This document shows, in pieces, positions 19,353 to 21,208 of a stretch of 33,963 bases of DNA. The stretch lies in assembly GCA_014379105.1 (NCBI GenBank), contig JACMML010000352.1, positions 1 through 33,963 of the forward strand. Direction: 5' to 3'. This DNA comes from Phycisphaerae bacterium. GTDB taxonomy: Bacteria > Planctomycetota > Phycisphaerae > Tepidisphaerales > Tepidisphaeraceae. A program made the translations under genes and the position numbers. Numbering within the stretch: the stretch's first letter is position 1; each line of letters begins with the position of its first letter. The notes below the pieces were generated by a model. It was given only the letters and a program-made list of their open reading frames with translations, did no database searches and was not told where the DNA came from.

Positions 19353-19943
19353 TTATTTGATCAGGTCTAGTAACGCTTTGAACTTGTCGGCGTTTTCGCG
19401 GTCGACTCGGGTATAGACCGCCTTTTCGGTCAGCAACGTCGGGCTGTCTATATTCTCTGCGATCACCTTCTCAAGTTCGGCGGGAGTCGTCACGGGCTTG
19501 TTCTTGAGGAAATCGGGATTGAGGGCCTGAATCGTCACCCCATTTTTACCCATGACGAGCTTCGCGACGAGATAGCGAATTTTCGCTGCTTCTGCTTCAG
19601 GCTTGAGCAACGCTTCCATCGCAAAGATTTCCAGGGAGATGAAGGTTTGTCCGCCGATCGGCGTCAACCAGGCGCGGCTTGTCATGGTCGCGTCGAGGGC
19701 TCGTTTGCCGTCCTCGCGCGGACGAATGATATATGCCTGCACAAGATAGCAATGGTCGTTCATTTTGTGCACGGCCCAGAAATCGTCCTGATCCTGGTCG
19801 GCCTTGTGCCAGATGCCGATCAGTGCGGGATCGAGCACAGCCTTCTCGGGATCACCGACGTAGGTCGGCAGGCAACCGATCAGAGACACGAAAAAGGAGA
19901 GTGCGAGCAATCGAAACGCGTGGCGCTTTGTCTGATTTTTCAT
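19353..19943 (-). CDS. Hypothetical lipoprotein
   Basis: MKNQTKRHAFRLLALSFFVSLIGCLPTYVGDPEKAVLDPALIGIWHKADQ; lipobox LIGC; ATGA overlap with moeA stop. Confidence 0.7.
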   Translation of the reverse strand: MKNQTKRHAFRLLALSFFVSLIGCLPTYVGDPEKAVLDPALIGIWHKADQDQDDFWAVHKMNDHCYLVQAYIIRPREDGKRALDATMTSRAWLTPIGGQTFISLEIFAMEALLKPEAEAAKIRYLVAKLVMGKNGVTIQALNPDFLKNKPVTTPAELEKVIAENIDSPTLLTEKAVYTRVDRENADKFKALLDLIK

Positions 19944-21208
19944 AGTGAAATCTCCATTGCCCGCACCGTGTCGCCGGCGCGGCGCGCCGGATCATAAGCC
20001 GGGCGAAGTACGAGGGCATTTGCTGCGGCGAGCGTAAATAGATCCGCCGACCCTTTCCACGAGAATACCGTGCAATGGCCATTTGCCACCGTGGCAGGCT
20101 GGTAAAACTCGCGCGGGCCGTTCGCGGGTAAAGCATTGTCCAGCACCACTTCCAGCCACCGGGGCTCGGGGCCTGCGCCACTCATCCGTTTCAACACACG
20201 CGAAACCAGGCAAAGTGTGCAGACATACGCAGAGACAGGATTGCCTGGCAGGCCGAAGATGATGCGTGGTGGGTGGGGACTGGGGATTGGGGATTGGGGA
20301 TTGTTTTCACTAAGCCCCAAGCCCCGGTCCCTAATCCCCATCACAAACGGCTTACCGGGTTTGATCTTCAGCTTTGTGATCGGCAACTCGTAGCCCATCT
20401 CTTTCAGCACGCGCGGCACGTAATCATATTCGCCCATGCTCATCCCACCGGTGACGAGCAGGACATCCACGCTCGCGCGCTCTATCGCATCACGAATCAA
20501 TCCCGGATCGTCCCGCACATGGCCAAGGTCGATCGGCTCGGCACCGAGCGTACGAACCATGGAGCAGAGAAGCAGGTTGTTGCTGTTACGAATTTGCGCG
20601 CCGGTTGGAACGCCGTCGATAGGGATGATCTCGTCGCCGGTTGTGAGAACGCCGACGCGCGGGCGAGCATAAACTTTCACAGTCACCGCGCCGACCGTCG
20701 CCAGCACCGCCAGTGCGGCGGGCGTGAGCGTTGCCCCGCGCCGCAGGACGACCTCACCGGCCGGGCGATCCGAGCCGCGATACGCGATCGACTGACGCGC
20801 CGTCACCGCAGCGTTGATGTCGACCTGGCCGTCTGCGCGTCGCGTGATTTGCTCCACCGGCACCACCGCATCCGCGCCGGGCGGCACGGGCGCGCCGGTC
20901 ATGATCGCAACGCACTCGCCGGATCCGACCGACCGCTCCCACACGTGCCCCGCCGCGACTTCGCCGACGAGACGGCGCGACGCCGATCCGTCCTCGCTTC
21001 GCACCGCGACACCGTCCATCAAGGCGCGGTCGAAAGGGGGATAGTCCCGATCCGCCACGATGTCTTGCGCCAGGATCAATCCGAGCACCCCAGCATCATC
21101 GATGCGCTGTTCCTTAACGCGCTGCGCGACCGGCAATGCGTCCAGAATCCCGATTGCCTGATCGACGGTCAGAAGATTTTCCGGAAGATCTTCTACCATC
21201 GAGCCCAC
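19940..21208 (-). CDS. moeA: Molybdopterin molybdotransferase, containing an unusual insertion before the GLPGNPVSA motif
   Basis: DRDYPPFDRALMDGVAVRSED...GECVAIMTGAPVPPGADAVVPVEQ...RPRVGVLTTGDEII...VTGGMSMGEYDYVPRVLKEMG...KIKPGKPFVMG...IIFGLPGNPVSAYVC. Confidence 0.95.
   Translation of the reverse strand: MGSMVEDLPENLLTVDQAIGILDALPVAQRVKEQRIDDAGVLGLILAQDIVADRDYPPFDRALMDGVAVRSEDGSASRRLVGEVAAGHVWERSVGSGECVAIMTGAPVPPGADAVVPVEQITRRADGQVDINAAVTARQSIAYRGSDRPAGEVVLRRGATLTPAALAVLATVGAVTVKVYARPRVGVLTTGDEIIPIDGVPTGAQIRNSNNLLLCSMVRTLGAEPIDLGHVRDDPGLIRDAIERASVDVLLVTGGMSMGEYDYVPRVLKEMGYELPITKLKIKPGKPFVMGIRDRGLGLSENNPQSPIPSPHPPRIIFGLPGNPVSAYVCTLCLVSRVLKRMSGAGPEPRWLEVVLDNALPANGPREFYQPATVANGHCTVFSWKGSADLFTLAAANALVLRPAYDPARRAGDTVRAMEISL
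20275..20340. repeat. Imperfect palindromic, G-tract repeat element inside moeA
   Basis: GGGGACTGGGGATTGGGGATTGGGGATTG-TTTTCACT-AAGCCCCAAGCCCCGGTCCCTAATCCCC: approx. 28-nt arms pairing around a short loop, 7-nt internal period. Confidence 0.85.

Follow-up and report, generated by a model that had tools for sequence, protein, structure and literature searches.

The window analysed here, a stretch of 33,963 nucleotides from the draft genome of a Phycisphaerae bacterium (family Tepidisphaeraceae), contains on its minus strand an intact moeA reading frame of 422 amino acids (19940–21208). Its product, a molybdopterin molybdenumtransferase, comprises all three MoeA domains in Pfam (MoeA_N, MoCF_biosynth and MoeA_C), and the closest named MoeA genes belong to Phycisphaerales, Phycisphaerae and Tepidisphaeraceae draft genomes. 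Inside this gene lies an imperfect palindrome (20275–20339). Read directly, the plus strand is GGGGACTGGGGATTGGGGATTGGGG at 20275–20299, followed by a loop and then by AAGCCCCAAGCCCCGGTCCCTAATCCCC, which ends at 20339. The G-rich arm (20275–20303, plus strand) is made of one GGGGACT unit, three GGGGATT units and a final G, i.e., four G4 tracts with a 7-nt period. The C-rich arm (20312–20339) reads GGGGATTAGGGACCGGGGCTTGGGGCTT on the minus strand and forms the 5' arm of the mRNA hairpin; the intervening loop (20304–20311) was delimited approximately from sequence and fold. Pairing of GGGG with CCCC is kept between the arms, and several of the triplets are mismatched. Both the heptad-spaced tracts and the G-tract-rich mRNA-sense arm had been described in a preceding sequence-only reading of this DNA, and both are there in the letters.

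Chance is rejected as a source of the four tracts at 7-nt spacing, which were absent from every shuffle of the whole window, and the best inverted repeat within 20001–20600 outscored all of 200 shuffles. The only G4-type matches of the 34-kb window (four tracts, each at least GGG, with loops of 1–7) fall in the element, and its tandem GGGGATT/GGGGACT units fit the definition of a G-rich heptamer SSR of the GGGGA(C/T)T type. A repeat search of 20240–20370 at default seed and identity limits returned nothing, and a search of plasmids and phages at 1e-5 gave zero matches to the element, a result to which low-complexity filtering may have contributed. Rfam offered sub-threshold microRNA models only, which we discarded as generic hairpin matches.

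An in-frame insertion in a MoeA loop

The element is translated in frame as GIRDRGLGLSENNPQSPIPSPHPPR, with IIFGLPGNPVSA immediately after. It had been proposed to be read through as roughly 20 low-complexity residues directly before the GLPGNPVSA motif, and reading frame and alignments agree on this. Between KPGKPFVF and VFGLPGNP, short-loop members of the family turn within a few residues (e.g., AKMPGGKF or ATIGDTF) and E. coli MoeA has GKLSNSWF; the corresponding segment of the window's protein, GIRDRGLGLSENNPQSPIPSPHPPRI, is about 20 residues longer, as measured on orthologue alignments with MoeA family members and E. coli MoeA. The loop is short in E. coli and several family members and variable in others; the case that would have refuted the earlier reading, a loop of equal length in all close relatives, does not hold. 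An AlphaFold model built from 34 sequences (mean pLDDT 92.4) places the insert-encoded stretch (about residues 292–315; 20268–20339, minus strand), which alignments and low pLDDT delimit, between strands 289–292 and 316–320, with pLDDT below 50 at residues 297–302. In the model, the insert is a disordered tip of a beta-hairpin, consistent with the surface loop that had been expected. The locus thus combines a palindrome in frame, an intact gene and an insertion relative to orthologues, as Rickettsia palindromic elements do.

The element had also been called G-quadruplex-capable. Oligonucleotides of the pure units, (GGGGATT)3GGGG and (GGGGACT)3GGGG, form very stable G4s by CD, with T1/2 above 95 °C (PMC4692102), and an energy model with RNA parameters folds the mixed G arm alone, which lies on the template strand of moeA, into a quadruplex (−31 kcal/mol). 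For the complete element, however, the same model prefers a hairpin on the plus strand (−48 kcal/mol), and the mRNA strand folds at −43 kcal/mol (z = −4.7), a stability equalled in 0 of 200 shuffles. The published data on the same units support a capability to form the quadruplex, but the hairpin should outcompete it whenever both arms are present and should be the default structure.

The heptads belong to a dispersed, lineage-specific repeat family

A BLAST search of the window's own genome with the 77-nt element returned 27 matches, the best other one spanning both arms (E = 1.9e-12). When a heptad pattern search was combined with reading of the loci, GGGG heptads were found at about 35 distinct sites, as inverted pairs at 16 and as single arms at 19; some copies sit at contig ends of this draft genome. 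The element is hence dispersed and not unique. The arms have a common order, with ATT/ACT heptads outside, CTT heptads inside and often GGTGA/TCACC towards the spacer; spacers vary, and heptad number differs from copy to copy. Distant copies share the heptad order and a TCAC(C/T)AAGCCCCAAGCCCC core with the moeA element. Most sites are extragenic, and about three of the 35 lie clearly inside ORFs: the copy in moeA, one in an Lpd-like protein (L048), where it falls in the lipoyl-domain linker, and those in the C-terminal tails of L026 and L271. The latter two are near-identical hypothetical proteins on different contigs (C61 and C153), the tails of which are encoded by GGGG heptads and a TTCGTTTGTTC motif. 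Among the copies read, no target-site duplication was evident by eye and no conserved end of the repeat was identified.

An inverted-pair pattern built on the GGGGCTT unit was found in two of 392 Planctomycetota genomes, namely the window's genome and G093, and a reversed control pattern in none of the 392; the GGGG-heptad family is accordingly not phylum-wide. The proposal of a mobile palindromic repeat stands as regards dispersal and lineage specificity, from which mobility is inferred. Two Y1_Tnp hits occur in the window's genome, and the adjoining DNA that we read holds no GGGG-heptad array. One contig (C196) carries at about 1300–2100 a Y1/RAYT-type gene (L280) with GTAG-tagged palindromes on both sides (TTGTAGCGGCCGCCGTCCCGGCGGC...), apparently a REPtron unrelated to the heptad repeat. 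Because this gene is flanked by a different palindrome, mobilisation of the heptads by RAYT is not supported. In the copies that we read, the heptad arms show neither a GTAG nor a CGTC tag, in contrast to REPs of the GTAG and CGTC superfamilies.

G093 belongs to the same class, Phycisphaerae, and to another family. About seven of its genes contain repeats of the GGGG-heptad type in frame. In lysS, mutS, rarA, gcvP and nadE, alignments show that the inverted pairs add residues relative to solved homologues; the mutS copy lies just upstream of the Walker A strand, and in gcvP and nadE the solved homologues already have a short variable linker at the position of the element. Going by ORF reading, a bioA-like gene and dnaE probably carry in-frame heptads as well. 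Several of the core enzymes concerned (L107, L110, L116, L282, L287, L294 and L298) act in DNA repair or replication (mutS, rarA and dnaE). Further ORFs that span elements of G093, such as L088, L092, L104, L284, L288, L293 and L297, were excluded, as they look spurious or lie upstream of starts. A congener of this organism (G474) has a shorter, different lysS loop without the element; the lysS loop of G480 (L308) is, like that of G093, long and of low complexity, and devoid of a palindrome.

Unrelated palindromes recur in the same MoeA loop

Six other Planctomycetota (G001, G025, G101, G102, G103 and G473) have a different in-frame palindrome in the same MoeA loop. Counting that of the window, unrelated palindromes have come to lie there at least seven times within one phylum. 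This recurrence is a new result that goes beyond what the sequence-only reading had proposed. The loop of G001 (L162, Phycisphaerales RYN_436) carries a long inverted repeat of TGCAAAT-type heptads, and that of G025 (L169, RYN_430) a perfect repeat with 26-bp arms of GGTCAGT-type heptads. Outside the family, the in-frame palindromes are CCCTCTCCCCCCGGGGGAGAGGG (L183), GCGGGGGACGTGAGTCCCC (L200, Schlesneria), GCACCCAGGGTGC (L207) and a GTAG-tagged repeat in a Gemmataceae member (L219). Each is dispersed in its own genome, with 80 matches in G001 (and 60 in its congener G022), 22 in G025, 44 in G473 and 70 or more in each of G101, G102 and G103; some of these counts take in both strands and thus stand for fewer sites, which leaves the conclusion unchanged. 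Insertion points within the loop differ between lineages. Every genus has a loop of its own length and sequence, length varies even where no palindrome is present, and most relatives lack one.

Nearly all of the genomes compared are drafts assembled from metagenomes. Among 83 MoeA genes, seven inverted repeats reached an ungapped score of at least 14, six of them in the loop and one, weak, outside. Across 80 MoeA loci (530 kb, with ORFs of 200 aa or more making up 452 kb, and the window's own locus left out), repeats scoring at least 19 numbered five in the MoeA loop, five in all other ORFs and 22 in intergenic DNA or near ORF edges. With the loop making up about 1% of the coding DNA, five against five corresponds to a binomial P of about 4e-8. 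The lysS gene, which also has a variable loop, served as control: a palindrome lies in this loop in one of 16 readable genes, that of G093, which indicates that not every variable loop shows such recurrence; lysS was accordingly dropped as a candidate second hotspot. Our literature search turned up no paper that describes dispersed heptamers or palindromes in the MoeA of Planctomycetota.

Discussion

How might a palindrome have come to lie within moeA? Very probably, the element belongs to a family of short repeats dispersed in this genome, one copy of which was inserted in frame as an inverted pair and is tolerated in a loop. The unit is a GGGGNNN heptamer array of about 30 nt, present singly or as an inverted pair that flanks a short variable spacer, and we envision a scenario whereby one such pair entered moeA in frame, in the beta-hairpin turn between the KPGKP and GLPGNP motifs. 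The insertion could survive there because length is unimportant in that turn and because the heptads happen to encode no stop codon in that frame. Copies may have arisen through DNA copying or transposition, and we infer that palindromes recur in the loop by survivorship at a permissive site rather than by targeting. In moeA, the element is probably selfish or neutral. Counting against this scenario, about half of the genomic sites are single arms, neither a target-site duplication nor a conserved end was seen, and some copies lie at contig ends of a draft assembly; the imperfect arms suggest that heptamer slippage in situ could have contributed.

Conceivably, such slippage might account for the whole element, if the polymerase slipped on G-rich codons and template switching supplied the second arm, with no mobile copy involved. 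In many bacteria, heptanucleotide repeats outnumber every other class of long simple repeat (PMC4679880), slippage has been proposed for them previously (PMC4679880, PMC4692102), and heptad number is indeed variable between copies. Yet the order and core common to distant copies, and the non-heptad palindromes that other lineages have at the same loop, make growth in place quite unlikely. Less likely still is that the insert is under selection, whether for a hairpin or quadruplex that tunes expression in the moeA message or DNA or for a useful protein loop. The predicted hairpin is very stable, and T1/2 exceeds 95 °C for the G4s of published heptads (PMC4692102), but a loop that differs in every genus, relatives that mostly do without a palindrome, and low-complexity residues modelled at low confidence render this reading highly improbable.

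The convergence of unrelated repeats on a single loop raises the question of whether the loop is more than permissive. A common enzyme, for instance a Y1/RAYT transposase, might target it preferentially, given that Y1 transposase genes were present in 15 of 15 genomes examined and that the Gemmataceae insert bears the GTAG tag, a hallmark of RAYT-linked REPs (PMC3733652). We regard this as very unlikely, because insertion points within the loop are not the same, loop length is variable even without palindromes, and the GGGG heptads are untagged, the palindrome on either side of the Y1 gene on C196 being a different one that does bear GTAG. Alternatively, the MoeA hairpin loop may be a phylum-wide landing site that receives unrelated palindromes far more frequently than the rest of the coding DNA does. 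Insertion would then follow a shared route that depends on replication or on hairpins, and selection would maintain the frame. This possibility is doubtful, though not far-fetched; if true, one protein loop would record each lineage's repeat history.

In-frame palindromic repeats are known from Rickettsia and from scattered REP cases. The likeness to Rickettsia palindromic elements that had been suggested holds for behaviour, since both are dispersed palindromes that lie in frame in enzymes, leave the gene intact and are translated as extra residues. It would not extend to a common sequence family. The element differs in its heptad architecture and in its host, which is of a free-living-type planctomycete lineage. 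GTAG- or CGTC-tagged REPs and BIMEs are likewise inverted pairs of short units with variable spacers, dispersed and in some cases intragenic, including in repair genes (Di Nocera, 2013, PMC3733652), but the heptad unit is without their defining tag. A precedent for convergence exists in two Xanthomonas, which have different REPs at about the same site of recB (PMC3733652); with seven unrelated palindromes gathered at a single protein site, the convergence in MoeA is larger.

Judged by unit sequence, the element belongs with the GGGGA(C/T)T heptamers of Nostoc (cyanobacterial STRR), which have the same units and are dispersed, mostly intergenic (about one third are not) and G4-capable (Rehm et al., 2015, PMC4692102), and it resembles the GGGAATC heptamers of Xanthomonas, which are likewise dispersed, mostly intergenic and G4-capable and often form inverted pairs (PMC4692102). 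In contrast to both, the present repeat occurs in another phylum, varies in its units (GGGGCTT and others) and lies as an inverted pair in frame inside conserved enzymes. The TAACTGA heptamers of Beggiatoaceae also form dispersed arrays that are patchy across phyla (PMC4679880), but these are direct repeats, located for the most part ahead of start codons, and do not form inverted pairs within genes. In core genes (mutS, lysS and nadE), a heptamer repeat of the G4 type acts as inserted coding sequence. Two old questions become testable, namely by which route such repeats are copied and whether new segments of protein originate from them. As a natural record of repeats that settle in genes without breaking them, the MoeA loop might offer a ready means of sampling palindromic repeats that are active in uncultured lineages.

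The window's genome also contains repeats of other kinds next to the GGGG heptads. At L007, L009, L019, L026 and L050, a second interspersed motif (TTGGCTTCGTTTGTTCG or GGGTTCGTTTGTTC) adjoins them to form larger composite repeats. At the starts of contigs C238 (L008) and C97 (L010), a tandem array of GGTTACT heptamers lies beside a GGGG-heptad arm; that both contigs end at such arrays suggests that the repeats break the assembly.
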